From Bacteroidota bacterium (GTDB lineage Bacteria > Bacteroidota > Ignavibacteria > UBA10030 > SZUA-254): 64,000 bases of DNA. The stretch spans positions 62,001 to 126,000 of the forward strand of contig JAGVIE010000055.1 in the NCBI GenBank assembly GCA_020056225.1, in the 5' to 3' direction. The stretch's first letter is position 1. Every line of letters begins with the position of its first letter. The translations under genes and the position numbers were made by a program. Below the pieces are notes generated by a model. That model worked only from the letters and a program-made list of their open reading frames with translations, did no database searches and had not been told where the DNA came from. Positions 48,503 to 62,736 of this stretch are shown here, piece after piece.

Positions 48503-50527
48503 GAAATCTGAACTCTACAGCTCTCTCTGGAAAAGCTGCGATGAACTCCGCGGCGGTATGGACGCATCGCAGTACAAGGACTACGTCCTCGTGCTCTTGT
48601 TCGTCAAGTATGTCTCAGACAAGTACTCCGGACATCCTGATGCGCTGATTGACGTCCCCAAAGGCGGCAGCTTCAAGGACATGGTAGCTGCGAAAGGCGA
48701 TAAGGAAATCGGCGACAAGATGAACAAGATCATCGCCAAGCTCGCCGGTGCGAACAACCTCAAAGGCGTGATTGACCTTGCCGACTTCAACGATCCCGAC
48801 AAGCTCGGCAAAGGAAAGGAGATGGTTGATCGTCTCACGAACCTCGTTGCCATCTTCGAGGACAGAGGGCTCGATTTCAGTAAGAACCGTGCCGAAGGCG
48901 ATGACATACTCGGCGACGCGTACGAATACCTGATGCGTCACTTTGCAACCGAGTCGGGCAAGAGTAAGGGACAGTTTTATACTCCCGCCGAAGTTTCCCG
49001 CATTATGGCTAAGGTCATTGGTATCAGTCAGGCAAAGAGCCAAAGCCAAACCATCTACGATCCAACATGCGGCTCAGGTTCGCTTCTGCTCAAAGCCGCC
49101 GATGAAACGCCCAGAGGGGCATTACGATCTACGGACAGGAAAAGGACAACGCTACTGCCGGTCTCGCGAAGATGAACATGATTCTCCATGATTTTCCGAC
49201 AGCAGAGATCTGGCAGGCCAACACTCTTTCGGCACCACACTTCAAAGAGAAAGACGGACGACTCAAAGCATGTGACTTCGTTGTTGCCAATCCTCCGTTC
49301 TCAGACAAAGCATGGAGCAATGGTCTCAATCCAACCGAGGATGAATACGAGCGCTTCGTTGATGGCGTTCCGCCTGCAAAGAACGGTGACTATGCCTATC
49401 TGTTGCATCTTCTCAAGTCGATGAAGAGTACTGCAAAGGGCGCAATCATTCTTCCGCATGGTGTGTTGTTCCGTGGCAATGCAGAAGCAGACATTCGCCG
49501 CAACATTCTTCGCAAGGGATACATCAAGGGAATTATCGGATTGCCTCCGAATTTGTTCTATGACACAGGTATCCCGGCTTGCATTATCGTGCTCGATAAA
49601 GAGAACGCCGCCGCTCGCAAGGGTATCTTCATGATTGATGCAAGCAAGGGCTTCATGAAGGATGGCAACAAGAACCGGCTCCGTCATCAGGACATTCACA
49701 AGATTGTCGATGTCTTTACGAATCAGATTGAGATCGACAAGTACTCACGCATGGTGCCGCTCTCCGAAATTGCTGACCCAAAGAACGATTACAACCTGAA
49801 CATTCCCCGCTACATCGATAGTTCAGAGCCGGAGGATTTGCAGGACATCGAAGCGCATCTCAAAGGCGGCATACCGAATCGTGACGTTGATGGCCTCAAA
49901 GACTACTGGAAAGTTTGTCCCGGTCTCAGAAGTGAATTGTTCGGTCGTGGTGACCGGGATGGATACAGTCAACTCAACATTGATGCGACGCAGGTCAAGC
50001 CGGCAATCTTTGCTCACCCGGAGTTTGTTGCCTTCTCGCAGTCTGTGAAGAAGCGGTTTGGAAAATGGAAAGCGATCAACACCGAATGCCTGCGGGCCGA
50101 AACGTCCTCGGGCGTGCAGGCCCGACTCAAAGAGATAAAGAAGGGTGACAAGCCGAAAAAGCTTATTGAACTCATCTCCGAGGAAATACTGCAAACATTT
50201 CTGGATGCGCCGCTCATCGACACGTACGACATTTACCAACACCTGATGACGTATTGGTCGGACACGATGCAGGATGACGTGTATATGATTGTTGCTGATG
50301 GATGGAAGGATGCCAGTAAACTGCAATTGCTCATTGAGGAGAAGGACAAGAAAAGTAAAGACAAGCCGGACATTGTTGTGGGCAAGATGAAGTACAATGC
50401 AGATTTGATTCCTCCGGCGTTGTTGATTGCCCGCTACTTTGCTCCTGAGAAGGCAGCCATTGAGAAGTTAGAAGTCGACAGTGAAGAACTCGTACGACAG
50501 ATGGAAGAGATACGTGAGGAACATTCC

Positions 50528-50563
50528 GGCCCGTCCGCCGAAGGCTTCGGGCCGCAGGCGGGC
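50528..50563. repeat. palindromic insertion in hsdM (first)
   Basis: GCCCG...CGGGC arms enclose CCGAAGGCTTCGG. In frame it adds SGPSAEGFGPQAG between EEIREEH and EEGLLQEVLDE, where HsdM proteins normally continue without interruption. Confidence 0.55.
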
Positions 50564-50708
50564 GAAGAGGGCTTATTGCAGGAAGTTCTTGACGAGAGGG
50601 GAAAAGTAAGCAAGACGCTGCTCGCAGAAAGGATTGATGAATTGGAGAAGCAAGTCCCGCAGTACAAGATGGTAGCAGAAGCCAAAGCGGTTTATTCAAC
50701 GAGTATCC

Positions 50709-50736
50709 GTAGGGACGTTCAATTGAACGTCCCTAC
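50709..50736. repeat. 28-base perfect palindrome in hsdM (second)
   Basis: GTAGGGACGTTCAA and its exact complement follow each other with no loop. It is read in frame as part of RRDVQLNVP. Repeats with the GTAGGG...CCCTAC ends are widespread between genes in other bacteria; inside a gene they are unusual. Confidence 0.7.
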
Positions 50737-51081
50737 AACGGAAGATGAATTAACAATTCTGCAATACTATGCCCGCCTCACTGAGCAGGAAGCCGAAGCA
50801 AACAGGAAATTGAAAGAAGCACAAAAATCACTCGATGTAAAAGTGGTAACCAAATACGGCGCACTCTCCGTTGATGAGATAAAGACACTTGTGGTGGATG
50901 ACAAATGGCTCGCCACAATTGCGGCTGACGTTCAGACTGAACTTGACCGAGTGTCGCAAGCACTCACCGGACGCATCAAGCAACTTGCCGAGCGTTATAC
51001 AACGCCACTCCCGGCACTTACAGAAGAAGTGGAAACACTCTCAAACCGAGTTGATGGACACTTGAGGAAGATGGGGTTTGA

Positions 51082-52410
51082 ATGGAAGTGAAGGCAGGGT
51101 ACAAACACAGTGGCGGAGGGCCGATCCCCGAGGATTGGGAGTTCAAGTCCATTGGAGAGGAAATCGATTTGCTCACGGGTTTTCCATTTCCAAGTAGTGG
51201 TTATTCCTCTACGGGAATCCGCTTGCTCCGAGGTTCAAACATCAAGCGGGGCGAAACTGATTGGAACGAAGAGATCACTCAATACTGGCCAGCAATTACT
51301 CAAGGATTGTCCGGTTATGAATTGCGAGAAGGCGATTTGGTGATCGCAATGGACGGATCATTGGTAGGTAAGAGTTTTGCCCGACTTTCAAAAAGCGATT
51401 TGCCCGCGCTTCTTCTTCAACGAGTAGCTCGGATTCGTTCCAAGAAACTTGAAGTGGGATACCTGAAAGAGTTTATAGGTAGTGACCGATTTATTAAATA
51501 CGCTGACTCAGTCAAGACGGTCACGGCGATACCACACATCAGCCCCAAGGACATCCGAGATTTTAGAATCCCTATTCCTCCGACAATAGAAGAGCAACGT
51601 GCCATCGCCGCCGCGCTCAGCCATGTGGATGCACTCATCAACTCACTGGATCGCCTCATCGCCAAAAAGCGAGACCTCAAGCAAGCCGCCATGCAGGAGT
51701 TGCTCACCCCGCCTTCCGCCAGAGAGCAGGCGGACAGGTCGTCGGGGCAGGCCGGCAAACGGCGTCTGCCAGGGTTTAGTGGGGAGTGGGAAGTGAGGAA
51801 ACTCAGTGACTTGTTCACTTTTAGTGGTGGCTTTTCAGCATCACGCGATCAGCTCTCATCGGAAGGCTATTGTTACTTACACTACGGCGACATTCACAAG
51901 TCTTCAAGGACGTTCATAGATGTTCGCTCTGATTATCAAGGCATCCCCAAGCTCAACATTCCATTGAAACGAGTTTCTACGGGTTCGCTACTGGAAGACG
52001 GGGATGTTGTTTTTGTGGACGCTTCTGAAGACGACGAAGGCACGAGTAGGCACGTTATTGTCGTAAATAAGGACAAGGCGCCTTTTATTTCTGGTCTTCA
52101 CACAATTGTCGCTAAGTGTAAGACGAATGAACTGGATCATCAGTATCGACGATACTGCTTCCAAACTGCTTCGATCAAGCGGCAGTTCTATTACTATGCA
52201 GTTGGTACGAAGGTTTCTGGGATCAGTAAAACTAACATCGCGAAGCTAACGATTCCTGTTCCCTCACTACCGGAACAAGCCACAATAGCCACCGTCCTCT
52301 CCGATGTTGACGCCGAGATCGTGGCACTCGAACAGAAACGCGACAAGACAATCGCCTTGAAGCATGGGATGATGCAAGAGTTGCTTACAGGGAGGATACG
52401 GCTTGTATGA
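51082..52410 (+). CDS. hsdS: type I restriction-modification specificity subunit HsdS
   Basis: 442 residues with two target-recognition domains, each followed by a conserved helix. After TRD1: IPPTIEEQRAIAAALSHVD and KKRDLKQAAMQELLT. After TRD2: VPSLPEQATIATVLSDVD and ending HGMMQELLTGRIRLV. It gives the HsdM2S and HsdR2M2S complexes their bipartite recognition site. It overlaps hsdM by 10 bases. A 45-base in-frame element (51709-51753) splits the central block AMQELLT/GKRRLPGF, adding 15 residues between the two halves, which may alter spacer length between the two half-sites. Confidence 0.9.
   Translation: MEVKAGYKHSGGGPIPEDWEFKSIGEEIDLLTGFPFPSSGYSSTGIRLLRGSNIKRGETDWNEEITQYWPAITQGLSGYELREGDLVIAMDGSLVGKSFARLSKSDLPALLLQRVARIRSKKLEVGYLKEFIGSDRFIKYADSVKTVTAIPHISPKDIRDFRIPIPPTIEEQRAIAAALSHVDALINSLDRLIAKKRDLKQAAMQELLTPPSAREQADRSSGQAGKRRLPGFSGEWEVRKLSDLFTFSGGFSASRDQLSSEGYCYLHYGDIHKSSRTFIDVRSDYQGIPKLNIPLKRVSTGSLLEDGDVVFVDASEDDEGTSRHVIVVNKDKAPFISGLHTIVAKCKTNELDHQYRRYCFQTASIKRQFYYYAVGTKVSGISKTNIAKLTIPVPSLPEQATIATVLSDVDAEIVALEQKRDKTIALKHGMMQELLTGRIRLV
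51709..51753. repeat. 45-base palindromic insertion in hsdS
   Basis: The element begins CCGCCTTCCGCC, contains the hairpin TCCGCC/GGCGGA and ends GGGGCAGGCC. It sits in frame between ELLT and GKRRLPGF, residues that are normally adjacent in HsdS proteins, so insertion is a firm inference. Confidence 0.6.
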
Positions 52411-52501
52411 GAGAGTCGAGAAGAGTTTATAGCAATTTATTCGGCATTATTCGTATATTAACCTATAAATATGAATAAATCACTATAAACATGAAATTCT
52501 G

Positions 52502-53698
52502 ATGGATAAGATCAAAAATCCGTTTTCTCCGGGGGCCGGATCTCCGCCGCCTGAATTGGCTGGACGCGATGGAATCTTGGAACAGGCCAGAATCCTTCTC
52601 GGTCGGATCCGAGAAAAACGTCCTGAAAAGAGCATTCTCTTAACAGGTTTGCGGGGTGTAGGGAAAACCGTCTTGCTCAATGAGATTGAGAGGATTGCCA
52701 CTCGCGCACAATACCATACGATTCTCATTGAAGCTTACGAGGACAAACGCCTTGCCTCGCTCCTAGTTCCACACTTGCGAAGTTTGCTATATAGTCTCGA
52801 CCGAATTGCCGGCGCTGGCAACAAGGTGCGTAAAGGCATCGGGGTGCTGAAAAGTTTCATCGGAGCTATTAAAGTTTCTCTCGGCGACGTTGAGTTTAGC
52901 ATTGATGTTGAGCCCGAACGGGGATCTGCCGACAGTGGAGATCTCAAAGTGGATCTTCCCAATCTTTTTACTGCCGTTGCTGAAGCTGCGGAAGAAAAGG
53001 GTACAGTAGTGGCGATCTTGATTGACGAAATCCAATACTTTAATCAGTCTGAGTTAGGTGCTCTGATTATGGCAATGCATAAAATGCAACAGCGCCAGCT
53101 TCCTCTTGTATTGATTGGGGCGGGTCTGCCAATTCTCCCTGGTTTAGTTGGCGAATCAAAATCATATGCCGAGAGGCTGTTCAGCTTTCCTGATATCGGA
53201 CCGTTGTCGGAACTGGATGCTGTCAAGGCGCTTCAAGATCCAGTTAGAGCCGCCGGGGAGGAATTCGAAGCATCTGCCCTCCATGAGATTTTTCGAATGA
53301 CAAAGGGCTACCCCTATTTTCTTCAAGAGTGGGGATATCAGGCGTGGAACAATGCCGATTCTTCACCGATCACCCTGCGAATTGTTGAAGATACGACGGC
53401 GTTAGTGAGAACACGCCTCGATGAGAATTTTTTCCGTGTTCGTTTCGACCGTCTCACGCCTCGTGAGAAGCAGTATCTCCGCGGAATGGCGGAGATTGGT
53501 CCTGGTCCTTATCGGACAGGTGATATCGCCGATGTTCTTAGGGTCAAAATCACAACACTTGGACCGGTGCGCGCCAGTCTCATTAAAAAGGGGATGATCT
53601 TCAGTCCCGCACACGGCGACATGGCTTTCACAGTGCCGCTCTTCGACGAATTTATGCGACGGGCCATTCCGAAGTTTCAACAGAAAATGGAACAATAG
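52502..53698 (+). CDS. AAA/STAND-like ATPase within the type I RM operon
   Basis: 398 residues. Walker A GLRGVGKT (~49-56), Walker B VAILIDEIQYF (~170-180), sensor-like LVLIGAGLP and a winged-helix-like C-terminus (DRLTPREKQYLRGMAEI, GDIADVLRVKITTLGPVRASL). This is the Orc1/Cdc6-like or archaeal-ATPase arrangement (AAA_16), often used for DNA- or ligand-controlled switches. It is not a standard type I subunit. It lies between hsdS and hsdR, 91 bases after hsdS and 22 bases before hsdR, so it is probably co-expressed. Possible roles are regulation of restriction or a separate anti-phage function; neither is shown. Confidence 0.78.
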   Translation: MDKIKNPFSPGAGSPPPELAGRDGILEQARILLGRIREKRPEKSILLTGLRGVGKTVLLNEIERIATRAQYHTILIEAYEDKRLASLLVPHLRSLLYSLDRIAGAGNKVRKGIGVLKSFIGAIKVSLGDVEFSIDVEPERGSADSGDLKVDLPNLFTAVAEAAEEKGTVVAILIDEIQYFNQSELGALIMAMHKMQQRQLPLVLIGAGLPILPGLVGESKSYAERLFSFPDIGPLSELDAVKALQDPVRAAGEEFEASALHEIFRMTKGYPYFLQEWGYQAWNNADSSPITLRIVEDTTALVRTRLDENFFRVRFDRLTPREKQYLRGMAEIGPGPYRTGDIADVLRVKITTLGPVRASLIKKGMIFSPAHGDMAFTVPLFDEFMRRAIPKFQQKMEQ

Positions 53699-53720
53699 GC
53701 AACGAAAGAAACGCGACTTC

Positions 53721-56700
53721 ATGAGCACCGTCGGACAAAAAGAACGCAAGACGCAGAACCAAGTAATCAAGCTCTTTACCAAGACGCTGAAGTACGACTA
53801 CCTCGGCGACTGGCATGAACGTCCCGACAACAGGAATGTTGAAGAGACACTTTTGCGGTCCTTCCTAAAGGAGAAACAGAAATACACAGAGGACCAGATT
53901 AACAAAGTGCTCTATGAGTTCAACAAGGTCGCTGGAGATCAGAGCCGCAGTCTGTACGACATCAACAAAGATGTCTATGCGTTGCTCCGTTACGGTGTGA
54001 AGGTAAGAATGGATGCGGGCGAGAATACCGAAAACTTCTGGCTCATCGATTGGAAACATCCCGAACAAAATCACTTTGCCATTGCCGAAGAAGTCACCAT
54101 CCTCGGCGAGAACACCAAACGTCCCGACATCGTCCTCTACGTTAACGGCATTGCGCTCGGAGTGTTGGAACTCAAGCGTTCGACCGTCTCAGTCAGCGAA
54201 GGAATCCGCCAGAATCTGGATAATCAGAAGAGTCTCTTCATCAAGCGGTTCTTCACCACGATGCAGTTGATCATGGCGGGGAATGACACCCAAGGTCTCC
54301 GCTACGCCACCATCGAAACTCCCGAGAAGTACTATCTCACATGGAAAGAACCAAGCAACATCGAGAATCCTCTCCACCGCGGTCTCAGCCAACTCTGTGA
54401 GAAGAAACGTTTCCTGGAAATCATCCACGACTTCACGGTCTTCGATGCCGGTGACAAGAAGCTCTGTCGCCATAACCAGTACTTTGGTGTGCAGGCTGCT
54501 CACGACTTTATCCGGCGCCGTGAAGGGGGAATTATCTGGCATGCACAGGGAAGCGGCAAGAGCCTCATTATGATCTGGCTCGCCAAGTGGATTCGCGAAC
54601 ACGTAAAGGACTCGCGGGTGTTAGTTATTACCGACCGTACCGAGTTGGACGAGCAGATCGAGGGGGACTACAACGGAGTCAACGAACAAATCTACCGCAC
54701 GACAAGCGGTGCAGATTTTATTGCAAGACTAAACGATGCGAAACCCTGGTTGCTTTGTTCGCTCATCCACAAGTTTGTGGGGCGGGATGAAACAGATTTT
54801 GAGGGTTATGTAGAAGAGCTACGTCGGTCGCTTCCACAGGATTTCATCGCCAAAGGAGACATTTATGTATTCGTGGATGAATGTCACCGGACACAATCAG
54901 GTGTCCTCCACGAAGCAATGAAGGCTCTACTGCTGAATGCACTCTTTATTGGCTTCACAGGTACTCCGCTCCTGAAAACAGACAAGCGAATAAGCCTTGA
55001 AGTCTTTGGACGCTACATCCACACATACAAGTACGACGAAGCCGTAGCCGATAAAGTTGTGCTCGATCTTCGGTATGAGGCTCGTGACATCGACCAGGAG
55101 ATTACTTCCCAGAAGAAGATCGACCAATGGTTTGAAGCCAAGACGAAGGGCCTGAATGACGTTGCCCGTGCCCAGTTGAAGAAACGGTGGGGAACGATGC
55201 AGACGATCTTCTCCAGCCAATCACGACTCGAAAGGATAGTTGACGATGTCCTGATCGACATGGAAACGAAGGATCGTTTGAGAAGTGGGCGTGGCAATGC
55301 GATGGTAGTGTCGGGAAGTATTTATCAAGCGTGCAAGCTATACGAAATGTTCAGTAAAACGCTCGGAGCCAAATGCGCTATAGTGACTTCGTACAAACCT
55401 TCTGCGGGTGCGATCAAAGGAGAAGAAACGGGTGAGGGGGAAACTGAGAAGCTAACCCAATACGAGATATACCAGAAAATGCTCGCTGATTATTTCTCAC
55501 TGCCTCCTGAAAAAGCAGTCAACAAAGTTGAGGAGTTTGAGAAGGAGGTCAAGAAGAAGTTTGTCAATGAACCGGGGCAGATGAAACTACTTATCGTAGT
55601 GGACAAGCTACTCACCGGGTTTGACGCTCCGCCTGCAACATACCTTTACATTGACAAGCAGATGCAGGATCACGGACTGTTCCAGGCAATTTGCCGCGTA
55701 AACCGTCTTGATGGTGACGACAAAGAATATGGATATATCATCGACTACAAAGACCTCTTTAAAAGTCTTGAGGGATCAATCAAGGACTATACCTCCGGTG
55801 CCTTTGATGGTTATGACAAAGAAGATGTTGCGGGACTACTGAGCAATCGGCTGGAGAAGGCCAAAGAACAATTGGAGCTGGCACTTGAAACCGTGAAGGC
55901 ATTGTGCGAACCGGTTGAACCTCCAAAGGATACTCCAAAAAATTTGCGCTACTTTTGTGCTAAAGATACCTCAGACAAAGAGGAGTTGAAAGAAAACGAA
56001 AACAAGAGATTAACGCTTTACAAAGCAGTTGCGTCGCTCTTACGTGCATACGCCAATCTTGCCAATGAGATGGACGGGGCAGGCTATTCTTCAGCTGAGG
56101 CTGAGAAGATCAAGAAGGAAGTTGAACATTTTGAAAGTGTCCGCAACGAAGTGAAACTTGCCAGCGGTGATTACATTGACCTGAAAATGTACGAACCTGC
56201 GATGCGCCACCTGATCGACACGTATATTCGTGCTGAAGAGAGCGAGAAAATTTCAGCTTTTGATGACATGACTCTTGTTCAGCTTATCGTCGAACGGGGG
56301 GTGGATGCACTGAACGAACTACCGAGAGGCATTCGTCAAAACAAAGAAGCGACGGCAGAGACTATTGAGAACAACATCCGCAGAGTAATCGTCGACGAAC
56401 AGCCCGTTAATCCGAAGTACTACGAAAAAATGTCCGAACTGCTCGATGCACTTATTCAGGAACGCAGACAACAGAAGATCGAATACGAGAAGTACCTTGC
56501 ACGGATTGTTGAGTTGACGAAGAAGGTAAAGAACCCGGCTGGCGGTACAAACTACCCAACATCTCTTAACACAAACGCAAAGCGTGCTCTCTACGACAAT
56601 CTCGACAAGAACGAGCACCTTGCCATGGCAGTGCATGAGGCGGTCGTTGCTAACAAAGAAGACGAATTTCGAGCGCATCCGATCAAGCTGAAGAAAGTTC

Positions 56701-56783
56701 GTTACGCAATCAGGAAAGTGCTCAACGATGAGCAAATGACGGATCGCATTCTTGACATCGTAAAGAACCAAATAGAATATTGA
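53721..56783 (+). CDS. hsdR: type I restriction endonuclease subunit HsdR
   Basis: 1020 residues. N-terminal PD-(D/E)XK nuclease: RPDIVLYVNGIALGVLELK (~133-151). Helicase core: Walker A HAQGSGKSL (~273), DEAD-like VDECHR (~385), motif III FTGTPLL (~413), and later KLLTGFDAPPATYLY and QAICRVNR (motifs V and VI). C-terminal helical region binds HsdM. It translocates DNA and cuts at a distance after meeting unmethylated sites. It appears intact, so a broken hsdM would be dangerous unless the frameshift is only apparent or HsdR is not assembled. Confidence 0.95.
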   Translation: MSTVGQKERKTQNQVIKLFTKTLKYDYLGDWHERPDNRNVEETLLRSFLKEKQKYTEDQINKVLYEFNKVAGDQSRSLYDINKDVYALLRYGVKVRMDAGENTENFWLIDWKHPEQNHFAIAEEVTILGENTKRPDIVLYVNGIALGVLELKRSTVSVSEGIRQNLDNQKSLFIKRFFTTMQLIMAGNDTQGLRYATIETPEKYYLTWKEPSNIENPLHRGLSQLCEKKRFLEIIHDFTVFDAGDKKLCRHNQYFGVQAAHDFIRRREGGIIWHAQGSGKSLIMIWLAKWIREHVKDSRVLVITDRTELDEQIEGDYNGVNEQIYRTTSGADFIARLNDAKPWLLCSLIHKFVGRDETDFEGYVEELRRSLPQDFIAKGDIYVFVDECHRTQSGVLHEAMKALLLNALFIGFTGTPLLKTDKRISLEVFGRYIHTYKYDEAVADKVVLDLRYEARDIDQEITSQKKIDQWFEAKTKGLNDVARAQLKKRWGTMQTIFSSQSRLERIVDDVLIDMETKDRLRSGRGNAMVVSGSIYQACKLYEMFSKTLGAKCAIVTSYKPSAGAIKGEETGEGETEKLTQYEIYQKMLADYFSLPPEKAVNKVEEFEKEVKKKFVNEPGQMKLLIVVDKLLTGFDAPPATYLYIDKQMQDHGLFQAICRVNRLDGDDKEYGYIIDYKDLFKSLEGSIKDYTSGAFDGYDKEDVAGLLSNRLEKAKEQLELALETVKALCEPVEPPKDTPKNLRYFCAKDTSDKEELKENENKRLTLYKAVASLLRAYANLANEMDGAGYSSAEAEKIKKEVEHFESVRNEVKLASGDYIDLKMYEPAMRHLIDTYIRAEESEKISAFDDMTLVQLIVERGVDALNELPRGIRQNKEATAETIENNIRRVIVDEQPVNPKYYEKMSELLDALIQERRQQKIEYEKYLARIVELTKKVKNPAGGTNYPTSLNTNAKRALYDNLDKNEHLAMAVHEAVVANKEDEFRAHPIKLKKVRYAIRKVLNDEQMTDRILDIVKNQIEY

Positions 56784-56784
56784 G

Positions 56785-57501
56785 ATGGCCAAGCTGAGAA
56801 TAGGAAGACTTGCGGTTGAAGTTGTTCGGAAGAACATCAAGAATCTGCATCTCGCTGTCTATCCCCCAAATGGCCGGGTACGAGTGGCCGTACCATTGCG
56901 CGTAGATAATGAAGCAGTACGTCTGGCGGTGGCGTCTCGGTTAGGGTGGATACGAAGGCAACAGAAGAGACTTACAGCCCAGGAGCGTCAATCCGCTCGT
57001 GAGTTTGTCTCGCGGGAAAGCCATTACTTCCTCGGAAGACGTTACCTCCTGAATGTGATTATCCATGATGGCCCTGCCCGGGTTGTCATCAATGGCAAAC
57101 CAGCCATCGATTTCTATGTGCCCGAAGGTGTCAATCGATCAACATGTGAGAAGATCCTCCGGGAATGGTATCGCAAGGAACTCAAGACACTCGTTCCTCC
57201 GCTCATCTCGAAATGGGAACCAATCATGGGAGTGCAGGTTTCAGAGTGGGGTGTCAAGAAGATGAAAACCAAGTGGGGTACATGCAATACGAGAGCGCAT
57301 CGAATCTGGATAAACCTTGAGCTGGCGAAAAAGCCAGTTCAGTGTTTGGAGTACATTGTCGTTCACGAGATGGTTCACTTGTTGGAGCGAAACCATAATG
57401 GGAAGTTCATTGGTTATATGAATGAGTTTCTCCCAAATTGGCGATCGCTGAGAGATCAACTCAACAGGTTTCCTTTACGACATGAGAATTGGGGGTACTA
57501 A
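56785..57501 (+). CDS. YgjP/SprT-like (DUF45) zinc metallopeptidase
   Basis: 238 residues. Zinc-binding motif VVHEMVHLLERNHNGKF (HExxH at ~194-198), preceded by WGTCNTRAHRIWINLEL, both typical of YgjP-type metallopeptidases. This family is often found next to hsdR in type I loci; role unknown, perhaps control of HsdR stability. It starts two bases after the hsdR stop and would be translationally coupled. Its stop TAA overlaps the start of a decayed ORF (TAATG). Confidence 0.85.
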   Translation: MAKLRIGRLAVEVVRKNIKNLHLAVYPPNGRVRVAVPLRVDNEAVRLAVASRLGWIRRQQKRLTAQERQSAREFVSRESHYFLGRRYLLNVIIHDGPARVVINGKPAIDFYVPEGVNRSTCEKILREWYRKELKTLVPPLISKWEPIMGVQVSEWGVKKMKTKWGTCNTRAHRIWINLELAKKPVQCLEYIVVHEMVHLLERNHNGKFIGYMNEFLPNWRSLRDQLNRFPLRHENWGY

Positions 57502-57667: not shown

Positions 57668-57910
57668 ATGAAAACAGAGATTATCCACAAACTCACCGAG
57701 TCGTTTGAAACGGCTGTCAGGCAAGTTGAAGAGATCGAATGCTGGTCAGCACGTGATTTGCAGGAACTTTTAGGTTATACGAAATGGGATAATTTCATAC
57801 AGGTAATTGATAAAGCAAAGATCGCTTGTTTAAAATCAGGGCAATCAGTTGAAGACCATTTTGCCGACGTCGGGAAAATGGTTGAACTTGGTTTGGTAAG
57901 CCAGCCTTAA
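57668..57910 (+). pseudogene. truncated DinD (DNA-damage-inducible protein D)
   Basis: 80 residues match only the N-terminal part of DinD: ECWSARDLQELLGYTKWDNF and SVEDHFADVGKMVELG, after which the reading ends with LVSQP. Complete DinD proteins are near 280 residues. DinD-like genes are frequent in type I restriction islands. A perfect AGGACA-type ribosome-binding site remains, so a short peptide may still be made. Confidence 0.7.
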
Positions 57911-58012: not shown

Positions 58013-59476
58013 TTATACTTTATGTGTGTCCTGGATTCTTCCTACAGTCCAAATAAAAAATGAAACACCAAGCCCAGGGTACATCGGTTCAATACCAAGA
58101 GGGTAATTGCCTGAGTTACCATTCAAATATCCTGTAATCAACCAACTAAGAGATGTCAGCCATCCGAACAGCATGGCAAGGAAAGCGTAGCGTGATGAAA
58201 TTCGCAATCGTTCGAAGTAACTTGCCATCAATGGCACAAGCAATCCAGGAATTACCACTGTGCCAATGGTGTACCAAAGCTGGATTACACTTGGAATTAG
58301 AAGGGCAATTGCAACGGAGAGGAGAAACGAAATGACGAGACCAACTTTAGTCCACGTCGTGGCGATGCTTGATGTCCGATATGAGATGTGCGAGGTGCGT
58401 TCGCTTTGTTTTGACAATCCGCTTTCAATCTGAAATCCGCGATTCGCAGTCCACAATCTCCCGAAAATGTCTCTTCCTAACGTTTGTGCTGAGACAAATG
58501 CAAGTGTATTCAACGTTGACATGATAGTAGCGAGCATCCCGACATAAAACATTCCCTTGGCGATTGGCGGGAGAACCGCTTCTGCAAGCATTGGGTACGA
58601 CATCATAGGGTCGGCAAGATTTGGTAGCGCTGCGCGAGCATAAAGCCCGGCAGTAGCTGTCATAAAATCAAATATGAACCAGAAGATGATCGAGATGAGA
58701 ATCCCTCGTTGAGCAACCTTCCCGTCTTTTGCCGCGTAGCAGCGTTGGTGGAATGCAGGATCAACCAGAGTCCACAGTGCTATGAAAAACCAGACGATGA
58801 TATACTGTGCGGAATTTCCTCCATGCCATGTGAGATGCAACGGCGGTAAATTTGCTTTCAGAAATTCAAAACCACCGAACTTAGTGAACGAGAACGGTAT
58901 GATAACAGCAAATCCGACAAACATCAAAATAAATTCCAGCACGTCTGTTTGAACATCGGCACGAAATCCACCCCAATACAGATATGAGATAGCGACAATA
59001 GCAGTCACGATCAGACTGACAAATAGATTCCATCCGAAGATCATCTGGAGAAATACACTCAACATCAAAATGTACGGTGCCGGTGTCATCAATATGAAAG
59101 TTAGCACAGAACCGAGAATGGCAGTTTTTCTATCGTATGCTAATTCGAGCTTGTCAGGAATGCTGTAAAGATTGGTCGCGCGTATTTTCTTGGCAAGGAA
59201 GAGCGCGAAGATCGCGGCAAAAATGTAGTAAGGAAGTCCTTGAATAAACCAGTTTGAAATCCCATAACGATATGAGAATTCCCCGACTCCTAAAATCCCA
59301 CCATACCAGGTTGATACGAGTGTCATGATGAATATTGGAAGTGTCAATGAACGACCTGCAAGAAGAAAGTCTTCCTCGGATGCCTTTGCTTTCCTTGTTG
59401 CTCTATATCCAACGAACAGTACCGCGGCGAGATACAAAATAATAACTATGATATCCGGAGGTGAGAGATGGATCAT
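58013..59476 (-). CDS. sodium:solute symporter, candidate thiamine or thiamine-precursor transporter
   Basis: 487 residues with about 13 transmembrane helices and SSS-family features (GYRATRKAKASEEDFLLAGRS, WYGGILGVGEFSYRYG, MLATIMSTLNTLAFVSAQTLGRD). It uses the Na+ gradient for uptake across the inner membrane. It is the third gene behind a TPP riboswitch, 12 bases after thiamine pyrophosphokinase, in the place that PnuT takes in many Bacteroidota thiamine operons, so thiamine or a precursor is the likely substrate. A repeat-derived stretch, SERTSHISYRTSSIA (58364-58409), extends a cytosolic loop. Confidence 0.8.
   Translation of the reverse strand: MIHLSPPDIIVIILYLAAVLFVGYRATRKAKASEEDFLLAGRSLTLPIFIMTLVSTWYGGILGVGEFSYRYGISNWFIQGLPYYIFAAIFALFLAKKIRATNLYSIPDKLELAYDRKTAILGSVLTFILMTPAPYILMLSVFLQMIFGWNLFVSLIVTAIVAISYLYWGGFRADVQTDVLEFILMFVGFAVIIPFSFTKFGGFEFLKANLPPLHLTWHGGNSAQYIIVWFFIALWTLVDPAFHQRCYAAKDGKVAQRGILISIIFWFIFDFMTATAGLYARAALPNLADPMMSYPMLAEAVLPPIAKGMFYVGMLATIMSTLNTLAFVSAQTLGRDIFGRLWTANRGFQIESGLSKQSERTSHISYRTSSIATTWTKVGLVISFLLSVAIALLIPSVIQLWYTIGTVVIPGLLVPLMASYFERLRISSRYAFLAMLFGWLTSLSWLITGYLNGNSGNYPLGIEPMYPGLGVSFFIWTVGRIQDTHKV
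58364..58409. repeat. repeat-derived insertion in the SSS transporter gene
   Basis: On the minus strand the segment includes CACATCTCATATCGGACATC, a simple duplicated pattern encoding SHISYRTSSI in a cytosolic loop. This resembles expandable repeats in Ignavibacteria-type genomes. Confidence 0.4.
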
Positions 59477-59488
59477 ACTGTTTTTACA

Positions 59489-60145
59489 TCAAGATAAGTG
59501 TTTGCCTTGGGGTGATAACCATGGTAAACCGTGAAACCGATACATAAGCAGTATTCCGGTTTCAATCCGAATCGATACTTGTTGGGATGTTGCTTCATTG
59601 CTGATACCTTCCCTGACACCCAATTCAAGTGTGTCGTTGTTAAGAGCATATTTAAGATTTGTTGTGGTAATCCCAGTGCAGCGATCGAGCGGTATCAGGG
59701 AAATCTTCTCACCTTCCCGCATTTCCAGATGGATTTCTTTTCGGATCAAGGTCAATTCACCCATTGAATCAATCATGCGGATATGAATTTTCCCGCCATA
59801 TTTTTTGAAACATCCCAAACTGCCGGTTGTATGATCTATCCGATCACCCGACGCGCCGATGATGTCTACGGAAGAGACGGAGTGTTCTATGCAGTAAAGA
59901 ATCGCTTTCTCAAGATCGGTATTATTTTGATCCTGGATAAATAATTGCTCAACATCCCGGAAGTGCAGTTGTGTAGAATGGAGTATAGAATCAAAATCAC
60001 CAAGTATGATATCAGGTTTTATTCCTAATGCTTGCGCGTGGTTGGCGCCTCCATCTGCGCAAACAATGATATTTGCATATTTCGTCAGTGCCCGAACGAA
60101 GTCCGGGTTGGGTAATGATCCATTTGCGATGATGAGTGCATGCAT
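59489..60145 (-). CDS. thiN: thiamine pyrophosphokinase
   Basis: 218 residues. Makes thiamine pyrophosphate from thiamine and ATP. Catalytic-domain motifs: IVCADGGANHA, IILGDFDSI, NNTDLEKAI and GASGDRIDHT, with a beta-rich thiamine-binding C-terminal domain. Typical length. Its ATG overlaps the stop of the TonB receptor gene (TAATG on the minus strand), indicating translational coupling. Direct salvage of thiamine suits a cell with a TPP-dependent 2-oxoacid:ferredoxin oxidoreductase. Confidence 0.9.
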   Translation of the reverse strand: MHALIIANGSLPNPDFVRALTKYANIIVCADGGANHAQALGIKPDIILGDFDSILHSTQLHFRDVEQLFIQDQNNTDLEKAILYCIEHSVSSVDIIGASGDRIDHTTGSLGCFKKYGGKIHIRMIDSMGELTLIRKEIHLEMREGEKISLIPLDRCTGITTTNLKYALNNDTLELGVREGISNEATSQQVSIRIETGILLMYRFHGLPWLSPQGKHLS

Positions 60146-62427
60146 TATAAATTTAAAGCTATACCCAAAGAATAATTTCTTTCAGATGCAGGGAAAAACG
60201 ATTTCCCTTCTCCACTTGCAATATAGAGATTATTCAAGAGATTATGAATCTTGCCGGTTAAGAGTAATTCGGTGTTCGTTAGGAATGTGGGTAATTTAAC
60301 TGATGCATCAAGATTTGTAACAGCGTAGCCATCGACTTTGTTCTCTTCGTTGTGAAGATTATCGGTATAAAAGGGACCAACATACCGGATGAGAAGTGAA
60401 ATGGATCTGTTATCGTTTCCATAACTCAATCGTACATTGCCGAGAACATCCGGAAAACCTGCAATAGGGTTCCCATCAAGAACTCGATAGATAGATGCTT
60501 TAGTATCGTAAAGTTCGTGATGGATTATTTTGTTTACCGAAAGGGTCATCGTACCGCTCACCTCAAGTTCGGTAGTTATTTTATAGCTGCCTTCAAATTC
60601 AAACCCTACATGCCGTGTACGTTTTGCGTTTACGAGTACCGAAGAACCGAAAACGTCTATCTCTCCGCTTTTAACCAGCTCATTATCGAATTCCATCCAA
60701 TAGACATTTGAGGAAACTTTTCCACCGTTAAATATGTAACTGCCGCCTATCTCAAGATCGAAAAGATGTTCAGGCTGCGCAATTGGTTTATCGAAATTGT
60801 AATGTGCGACCGATGCGGAAGTCACAGTCTCAAATTTGGGGATTGATCCTGTCCATGCATCTTCTGCCGCATATAAATTCCTTAATCGTGGCTCTCGTGA
60901 TGTGTACCCAAGAGAAACGTATCCATTAAATTCTTCCGAGAAATTCCGATTAATTCCAAGCCGCGGGTTGACAAAAAGATAGTTCAAATCAAAATTATTT
61001 CCGAGGAATTTCTCGTTATAAATTCCGTATCGATTGACTGCAAGCTGGAGTTCCGCCATCACTGTAGTTGCCTCATCAGGATGATAAAGTTCTTGAACGT
61101 AAAGTGAGAAGATGTCTTTCCGTCCATTATATTCGTAGAAATGGAAATCGGGATCGAATGTTGAGGTTGGATATTCTGTTGCAAATGGAATTTTTCCCCA
61201 ATGCGTAGAACGATGGAAACGAAGCTCACCACCTATAGTCAATTTGCCGTTTTTATGTTGGATCTCGACACGGGGCAGCCATCCCCATTGGTTATTCTGA
61301 ACGTAACCTCTTAACAGGATCGATGGAAATTTTGAGGTGCCAAAAGTCGAATCATATCCGACTATATTATGGAACCAAGACAGTGCGGAGTTATCATACC
61401 AGAGCCAATCGCCGTCGTAATCGTAATAGCCCTCGCCATGGATGTGAAAGAATGTATTGAACACTGTTATCTTTGAAGAAGGTTGCCACTCGTTGAGGAT
61501 TTCGTAATGAGGTTGTGTAAAGTTCTCAACAGCTTGAGGTTTTTGTTCGGTATAATAACCGACTTGCCTTCCGGTGGTGTCGTATTCCCAATAACTGTAA
61601 TTAGAGCGGCGAAGTTGCTTATCTTCGTTATAGTATTTAGGAAGTCCTATATAGGCAAGCCCGTCGCTGATCGGTCCGCCATAAATATTAATGCGAGTCG
61701 ACATATTTTCATCGAAACGAGCTGCGCCGATAAAATAGCTGCTCATATTTGCCCAAGAGTTTTCCCGATAGCCATCGCTTGTTATTTTAGAAATATTCCC
61801 CGTGAGTACATATCGCTCATTAATAAGTCCGGACGAGAATCCAGCTGAATATTTCCTAACGTTCATCTTAATAGTATTATTTCCGCCAAATTCCTGAAAT
61901 CCAAATCCGCTGCCAAGAGAAATCTTCGGTTGCATACTGAAAGGTGTGGTTATGATATTTACCGATCCGCCGATTGCCGGTGGTCCATAAAACGAACTTC
62001 CCGCACCGCGTTGAACCTGAACGCTTTGTGTGAAGGCAAAGATGTCCGGCATATCGATCCAATAGACTTGATGATCTTCCGGATCGTTTTGAGGAATACC
62101 ATTTACCATTATCGAGAGTCTCCGTTGGTCGAACCCACGCAGATTCATGTAACTATAACCTGTACCGTTACCGTTTTCAGAATAAAAAGTAACGGAGGGA
62201 AGTTCCGATAATAAAACCGGAACGTCCTGAGCAAAATATCGCTGTGTCAGTTGTTTCTGAGTTATATCGGAAAAAGTCACAGGCGTTTCTCGTTCATATG
62301 CTTGTGTCGGTACTATGATAACCGGTGACATGTAAAATATCGTATCGTTCTCCACCGATGTGATTTCTTGTGAAGATAAAATCGGGACACATAAAAGAAT
62401 AAAAAGAATAAATGTTATAAGTTTCAT
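60145..62427 (-). CDS. TonB-dependent outer-membrane receptor, predicted for thiamine
   Basis: 760 residues. Signal peptide 1-20 ending ILSSQ. Plug domain with YMNLRGFDQRRLSIMVNGI and VQRGAGSSFYGPPAIGG, then a 22-strand barrel ending SLGIALNL. It binds a scarce ligand at the cell surface and imports it with TonB energy. The TPP riboswitch in its leader and thiN immediately downstream indicate thiamine or a phosphate ester as ligand (the OMR1 role in comparative studies of Bacteroidota). GGAG (62436-62439) precedes the ATG. Confidence 0.9.
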   Translation of the reverse strand: MKLITFILFILLCVPILSSQEITSVENDTIFYMSPVIIVPTQAYERETPVTFSDITQKQLTQRYFAQDVPVLLSELPSVTFYSENGNGTGYSYMNLRGFDQRRLSIMVNGIPQNDPEDHQVYWIDMPDIFAFTQSVQVQRGAGSSFYGPPAIGGSVNIITTPFSMQPKISLGSGFGFQEFGGNNTIKMNVRKYSAGFSSGLINERYVLTGNISKITSDGYRENSWANMSSYFIGAARFDENMSTRINIYGGPISDGLAYIGLPKYYNEDKQLRRSNYSYWEYDTTGRQVGYYTEQKPQAVENFTQPHYEILNEWQPSSKITVFNTFFHIHGEGYYDYDGDWLWYDNSALSWFHNIVGYDSTFGTSKFPSILLRGYVQNNQWGWLPRVEIQHKNGKLTIGGELRFHRSTHWGKIPFATEYPTSTFDPDFHFYEYNGRKDIFSLYVQELYHPDEATTVMAELQLAVNRYGIYNEKFLGNNFDLNYLFVNPRLGINRNFSEEFNGYVSLGYTSREPRLRNLYAAEDAWTGSIPKFETVTSASVAHYNFDKPIAQPEHLFDLEIGGSYIFNGGKVSSNVYWMEFDNELVKSGEIDVFGSSVLVNAKRTRHVGFEFEGSYKITTELEVSGTMTLSVNKIIHHELYDTKASIYRVLDGNPIAGFPDVLGNVRLSYGNDNRSISLLIRYVGPFYTDNLHNEENKVDGYAVTNLDASVKLPTFLTNTELLLTGKIHNLLNNLYIASGEGKSFFPASERNYSLGIALNL

Positions 62428-62456
62428 AAGTAAATCTCCAACGATTGTAAAATATT

Positions 62457-62507
62457 AACGCCGTTTTCCTGATTCCCCAGCGTAAAAAGAATCGGAAAAA
62501 CGGCGTT
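62457..62507 (-). terminator. riboswitch expression-platform terminator
   Basis: On the minus strand AACGCCGTTTTTCCGATTC (62507-62489) pairs with GAATCAGGAAAACGGCGTT (62475-62457), followed by AATATTTT. Its loop contains TACGCTGG (62484-62477), the exact complement of CCAGCGTA in the aptamer (62539-62532), which gives an antiterminator alternative. Confidence 0.8.
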
Positions 62508-62523
62508 AAAAAAACCTAACATC

Positions 62524-62610
62524 CATTTCCCTACGCTGGTATTATCCAGATCAGGTTCAAGGGTGTTATCTCAGTCCATCTTTTTAGATTTGGACACCCC
62601 TAACGGATTC
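62524..62610 (-). ncRNA. TPP riboswitch (THI element)
   Basis: The minus strand carries the whole conserved set in order: TTAGGGGTG, GACTGAGATAACACCC, TTGAACCTGATCTGG, ATAATACCAGCGTAGGGAA. These form the pyrimidine- and pyrophosphate-sensing arms of the aptamer. With TPP bound, the aptamer holds CCAGCGTA and the downstream terminator can form, stopping transcription of the receptor, thiN and symporter genes. Without TPP the antiterminator forms. Confidence 0.95.
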
Positions 62611-62736
62611 TTGCATCTAATATAACAGTTACCTGAAAATAAAGCAAATCGACTCCTTGTTTGGATGTTTCGTGAACAGGTATTATATTTCCAGACATAA
62701 TTCACTTACTCAATCATAATATCGGAGAAAATAGCC

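Follow-up and report, generated by a model that had tools for sequence, protein, structure and literature searches.

An SSS-family symporter in the slot of PnuT in a TPP-riboswitch operon of a Bacteroidota bacterium: a candidate Na+/thiamine importer

The locus studied here raises the question of what a sodium:solute symporter (SSS family) carries when it is encoded in a thiamine operon, in the place that PnuT takes in comparable operons. The analysed window was a 64,000-nucleotide stretch of DNA (contig JAGVIE010000055.1, positions 62,001-126,000), and all positions in the window given below are those of the stretch. A TPP riboswitch, a TonB receptor, a thiamine pyrophosphokinase (TPK) and the SSS symporter follow one another on the minus strand, in this order, as a single run:

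62511-62611, minus strand: TPP riboswitch aptamer (THI element), matched by Rfam RF00059 with 75.7 bits over the full model (1-105)
62455-62509, minus strand: strong hairpin found by folding, located after the aptamer and before the start codon of the receptor; a candidate expression platform
60145-62427, minus strand: TonB-dependent outer-membrane receptor, candidate thiamine receptor (OMthi-like), from Pfam Plug (64.9 bits), beta-barrel (71.9 bits) and operon context
59489-60145, minus strand: thiamine pyrophosphokinase (TPK), TIGR01378 with 159.7 bits (cut-off 76.4)
58013-59476, minus strand: SSS-family symporter, candidate Na+/thiamine importer, from PF00474, an AlphaFold2 model and CHT1 as the closest structure

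The receptor and TPK genes overlap by 1 base, a gap of 12 bases separates TPK from the symporter gene, and the latter is an intact ORF of 487 aa with an ATG start. The coordinates and profile matches confirmed the single run with an overlap or a 12-base gap that an earlier note on this DNA had described; the gene called thiN in that note was recognised as TPK by TIGR01378. The computed gene set, in which TPK follows the riboswitch and the TonB receptor without a break in the run, is that of a Bacteroidota thiamine salvage operon. The operon's riboswitch was the single RF00059 match in the 3.5-Mb genome of the source bacterium, and its TPK was the sole match of PF04263. The segment 62424-62530 folded at -32.6 kcal/mol (z = -4.75), with 1 of 200 shuffles equally stable, and the hairpin inside it may serve as the expression platform.

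The arrangement is comparable to the OMthi-tnr3-pnuT operon described for Bacteroides thetaiotaomicron, in which tnr3 encodes TPK (PMC5613172). The two loci share the TPP riboswitch, the TonB receptor, TPK and an inner-membrane carrier, whereas the carrier is an SSS symporter here and the PnuC-family PnuT there. Very probably, the operon serves a thiamine auxotroph as a salvage route for thiamine under repression by TPP, with the SSS protein doing the job of PnuT. Low TPP would free the riboswitch, leading to joint production of receptor, kinase and symporter; thiamine would enter the periplasm through the TonB receptor, cross the inner membrane together with Na+ by way of the SSS protein and be converted to TPP by TPK.

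The occurrence of this layout was determined in 60 genomes, namely that of the source bacterium and 59 relatives of its order. A close SSS orthologue was present in 48 of them (at least 46% identity in the aligned loci), and the further SSS matches in these genomes mostly showed 22-32% identity. RF00059 matched 54 of the 60 genomes at E ≤ 0.001, once in each, with 40 matches over the Rfam cut-off; TPK was found in 53, likewise in one copy each. Among the 44 genomes with both SSS and riboswitch matches, 39 had the two matches within 6.8 kb of each other on a single contig and strand, and the remaining five had them on different contigs. Sixty order loci were fetched from 56 genomes (the source genome, G011, G012 and G042 were left out). 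An SSS protein was encoded in 46 of these loci, and TPK was directly upstream of it in 40 of the 46, the window itself not being counted. The six SSS loci without TPK comprised two from genus g17, two starting inside the gene, and those of G034 and G014. Both the linkage of SSS to the riboswitch and its position behind TPK exceed chance at these frequencies. A candidate TPK-SSS fusion, a 683-aa ORF in G039 (L095, 4642-6693), was rejected; it contains X from an ambiguous contig stretch and is probably due to an assembly gap.

We then compared the symporter with the PnuC/PnuT family. PF04973, which does not tell PnuT from nicotinamide-riboside PnuC, exceeded its cut-off in 12 of the 60 order genomes: ten were devoid of the SSS orthologue and two (G036 and G048) had both carriers, with no TPK within 1.5 kb of the PnuC gene in either direction. 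In all ten SSS-less genomes, the PnuC/PnuT gene was placed directly behind TPK, that is, in the symporter's slot. This was seen by locus reading in G016, G017, G026, G035, G041, G044 and G056, and from PF04973 match coordinates just behind the TPK gene in G050, G053 and G059. The source genome had no PF04973 match, and G025 had one, below the cut-off. Neither carrier was detected in G012 (79% complete) or G042 (97% complete, also without a riboswitch or TPK match). A quick maximum-likelihood tree of TPK and TonB receptor (58 rows, with SH-aLRT as the sole support measure) required four or more changes of carrier state; on it, G021 (SSS) was the sister of G016 (PnuT), a member of the same genus, indicating a swap within a genus. 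Operon transfer is likely, because the tree mixes families in places. The receptor and TPK of the window grouped on this tree with those of G015 and G025, which belong to another family, an observation suggestive of operon transfer.

The exclusivity of the two carriers extended to a sample of 296 genomes of the phylum. The family profile (E ≤ 1e-36) found 87 genomes and PF04973 (E ≤ 1e-10) found 123. With G288 (130 bits by the family profile) not counted, 86 family members remained, and none of them was shared with the 123 PnuC-family genomes, as against 35.7 expected if the two were independent (hypergeometric p = 5e-26, kinship ignored; the genome counts are not independent, as the genomes are related). 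Both searches share genome handles, and the samples were presumed to be identical. Three families of the sample hold both carrier types, in different genomes. The non-orthologous replacement of PnuT suggested in the earlier note is thus strongly supported by the same-slot swap, the exclusivity in the phylum and the lack of a PnuC-family match in the source genome. As judged from sequence comparison, PnuT appears to have been replaced, one for one, by the SSS symporter in the slot behind TPK. No description of such an exchange between PnuT and an SSS protein was found in the searches of open-licence PMC papers.

The biosynthetic genes of the same genomes bear on the substrate. ThiC and ThiN were found in none of the 60 order genomes, and ThiE exceeded its cut-off in two (G015 and G025, of one genus), with weak matches in five more. 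The same searches found ThiC, ThiE and ThiN in 13, 11 and 5 of 14 control genomes, respectively. The source bacterium is apparently unable to make vitamin B1. Since ThiE did not reach its cut-off in 58 genomes and ThiN was missing from all 60, leaving no TMP synthase, HMP would not be usable; thiamine would therefore be the simplest cargo, the more so as 53 of the 60 encode TPK, an enzyme whose substrate is thiamine. Of the substrates considered at the outset (thiamine, HMP or a phosphate ester), thiamine is favoured and HMP is unlikely.

An HMP carrier does have a precedent in ThiV of SAR11, a TPP-riboswitch-controlled member of the SSS family that is described as the likely HMP carrier (PMC11452348), and the operon of genus g12 (L082 in G025, L072 in G015) would suit it, with a thiM-like gene (by eye) and thiE next to thiL, the receptor, TPK and the symporter. 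We consider HMP transport by the symporter highly improbable, however, given the lack of ThiE over the cut-off in 58 genomes (five with weak matches) and of ThiN in all, and because it matches only one of the three residues published as typical of ThiV. Y78, D139 and, with one exception, F254 (SiaT numbering) are reported as common to symporters of the ThiV type (PMC11452348). The Tyr of SiaT position 78 is represented by Y71 (Y in 12 of 15 family rows), which is non-discriminating since PanF also has Y. The Asp of position 139 is replaced by Y135 in three alignment modes (Y in 15 of 15 rows), and the Phe of position 254, followed by His or a polar residue, is replaced by D239 (15 of 15 rows). 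An F242-H243 pair lies three residues past D239, and a gapped alignment could match it to the motif at SiaT 254. By comparison at the published residues, the symporter was not assigned to ThiV and seems to resemble it in its link to B1 control.

SSS proteins have been tied to vitamin B1 in several other systems. ThiV was presented as a homologue of panF with THI-element control (PMC2211319) and is among listed B1 transporters (PMC6593275); SSSP and SSSQ are SSS proteins linked to B1 uptake (PMC4260697), and deletion of the fungal SSSQ/Dur31 indicates thiamin uptake (PMC5997356). ThiV/SSSP (SAR11, Methylobacillus, algae) and SSSQ/Dur31 are thus, like the symporter studied here, SSS proteins tied to TPP riboswitches and to B1 or HMP uptake. 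Unlike them, the present symporter has a TonB receptor and TPK as neighbours, and TMP-forming enzymes are missing from most of its genomes. The locus Cabys_3975-3977 of Caldithrix abyssi is described as holding a TPP riboswitch, which precedes a TonB receptor gene, together with a sodium-solute symporter and TPK (PMC5317091). These are the same gene types as in the window, the likeness being one of described gene content; the published passage on that locus deals with one genome and makes no comparison with PnuT (PMC5317091). The earlier proposal of a new carrier therefore has to be narrowed: SSS symporters for B1 or HMP (ThiV/SSSP) and the Caldithrix gene set were already published. In a tblastn search, 176 plasmid records matched; 40 of them were listed, all SSS proteins with 21.7-30.2% identity, and among six SSS contexts taken from that listing, five were annotated without thi genes and the sixth record was unannotated.

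Profile searches placed the symporter in the SSS superfamily without assigning it to a named member. SSF (PF00474) was its only Pfam match, with 104.2 bits (cut-off 22.8), and PF04973 did not match the protein. No model of NCBIfam release 20.0 exceeded its cut-off on it, so that such genes would tend toward annotation as generic symporters. PanF, which belongs to the same superfamily, was the best named equivalog match, but its 95.2 bits are far below the cut-off of 328.05; PutP reached 53.7 bits (cut-off 515.5). Conversely, the profile of the symporter's own family scored PanF at 109 bits and the TPK-linked phylum members at 441 bits or more. The AlphaFold2 model (mean pLDDT 91.2, pTM 0.90) showed the LeuT-type fold of SSS proteins. 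The closest solved structure was human CHT1 (Z 45.7, 2.9 Å over 455 residues, 19% identity), followed by SiaT (Z 37.7) and SGLT1 (Z 36.8). The lead of CHT1 may be explained by the conformational state of the structures, and for this reason the fold rank is no proof of the substrate. PanF as the best named match and CHT1 as the best structural match could be read as signs of an unrelated solute, such as pantothenate, choline, a sugar or an amino acid, and of an operon position reached by accident, as could the deeper members of the family, which adjoin other genes. We regard this as very unlikely, since the PanF score is far below its cut-off and an accident would leave the recurring TPK neighbourhood and the PnuC exclusivity unexplained.

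The likeness to CHT1 (SLC5A7) was followed to the level of residues. In CHT1, the rings of W62, Y91, W141 and W254 are described as caging the ammonium group of choline (PMC11589582), and alanine at cage positions is reported to abolish uptake (PMC13220886). Three alignment modes mapped W62 to W57, Y91 to Y83, W406 to W401, W141 to T131 and W254 to D239. The symporter, encoded in a bacterial vitamin operon, thus keeps part of the choline cage (W62, Y91, W141, W254, W406) and has T131 and D239 instead of W141 and W254; the W of W401 is also present in PanF, PutP and SiaT. Conservation was assessed in 177 family rows, which included all members longer than 380 aa except fifteen deeper members and L319, took in a dozen loci where no TPK lay within reach, and represented some genomes twice. 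W57 was W in 176 rows, Y83 was Y in 161 and F in 16, and D239 was D in 175, whereas PanF has Y, L and V at the columns of W57, Y83 and D239, respectively. In the model, W57 and Y83 might hold the thiazolium cation, with D239 contacting the substrate. S320 was S in 169 of the 177 rows, and the column of T321 was T or S in all of them; we take S320/T321 to be the TM8 sodium-site position. Coupling to Na+ is predicted from two features, the fold and S320/T321.

Thiamine monophosphate (TMP) as the cargo deserves separate consideration. According to this explanation, the symporter carries TMP, alone or with thiamine, at least in its own family and the neighbouring family f2, and ThiL then makes TPP. 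ThiL exceeded its cut-off in 16 of the 60 order genomes, all from families f1 and f2 and including that of the source bacterium (299 bits; G000 C3:16102-17115, L328), where it is kept without ThiE; at E ≤ 0.001, ThiL matched 58 of the 60, as expected of an enzyme superfamily. ThiE over the cut-off was missing in 14 of the 16 ThiL genomes. G020 (100% complete) and G030 (99%) had ThiL and no match to TPK, ThiE, ThiN or an APH-type kinase, and both retained the TPP riboswitch (below the Rfam cut-off in G030), the receptor and the symporter. G034 also had ThiL and no TPK match; its SSS contig is 3.3 kb long, no riboswitch was found, and one APH match fell below the cut-off. These three genomes would need external TMP or TPP, or an undetected enzyme. 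The argument for TMP would, however, fall away if a thiamine kinase or TMP synthase had escaped detection, and TPK beside the symporter elsewhere indicates free thiamine. Moreover, in the seven ThiL loci that were read, ThiL stood apart from the operon (in genus g12 it belongs to it), and the binding-site columns checked did not set genus g17 apart. Transport of TMP is thus rather unlikely, and free thiamine is preferred as the substrate.

Most homologues beyond the order were also found beside TPK. Among 73 phylum loci outside the order, TPK adjoined the SSS gene in 57 and was missing in 16, including that of G288, and our own riboswitch model (R1) detected a TPP riboswitch in 32 of the 73; row L037 was left out of the riboswitch alignment A3. 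A scan of genome contigs found 534 relatives, of which 80 were kept; these overlap the order set and include records of Kryptonia, KSB1, Marinimicrobia and Armatimonadetes. TPK was adjacent in 70 of the 80 loci, further off in two and absent in eight, and an Rfam scan of 40 of them revealed a TPP riboswitch in 17. A predominance of homologues in operons for sugars or amino acids that lack THI elements, the pattern named in the earlier note as speaking against a thiamine carrier, was therefore not observed, as most homologues adjoin TPK and part of them have a TPP riboswitch.

Fifteen deeper members (L288, L293, L297, L304, L307 and L309-L318) were not beside TPK. None of the 15 had W at W401, and Q stood in place of W235, while W57, Y83 and D239 were kept; these three residues alone are consequently no mark of thiamine transport. 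The neighbours in 11 deeper loci, read by eye, were CDP-alcohol phosphatidyltransferase-like (8), RNase HII-like (4) and FolE-like (4), and the genomes of the deeper members gave no PnuC match. The deeper members may differ in substrate, and the family may not share one substrate.

A salvage route with a thiamine-carrying symporter would give a candidate substrate to an unnamed symporter subfamily of Bacteroidota, also found in Kryptonia, KSB1, Marinimicrobia and Armatimonadetes. It would show repeated exchange between PnuT, which is a facilitator, and a sodium-driven pump, and it bears on the competition of B1-auxotrophic environmental bacteria for a scarce vitamin. A more far-reaching proposal, which we put forward tentatively and consider doubtful, is that of a separate SSS subfamily in which B1 transport evolved independently of ThiV/SSSP. 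It would have a cage like that of the choline symporter with one Trp changed to Asp, would have displaced PnuT repeatedly in Bacteroidota and would import TMP in some lineages, with ThiL alone making TPP without TPK.

Reading the DNA next to the operon by eye suggested a type I restriction-modification cluster (M, S and R subunits) at 49172-57501 of the window on the plus strand, which converges on the thiamine operon; its S and R genes flank an ATPase gene, and a metallopeptidase-like gene lies at the end. Between this cluster and the operon, an 80-aa ORF (57668-57910, plus strand) has the look of a cut-short DinD-type gene.
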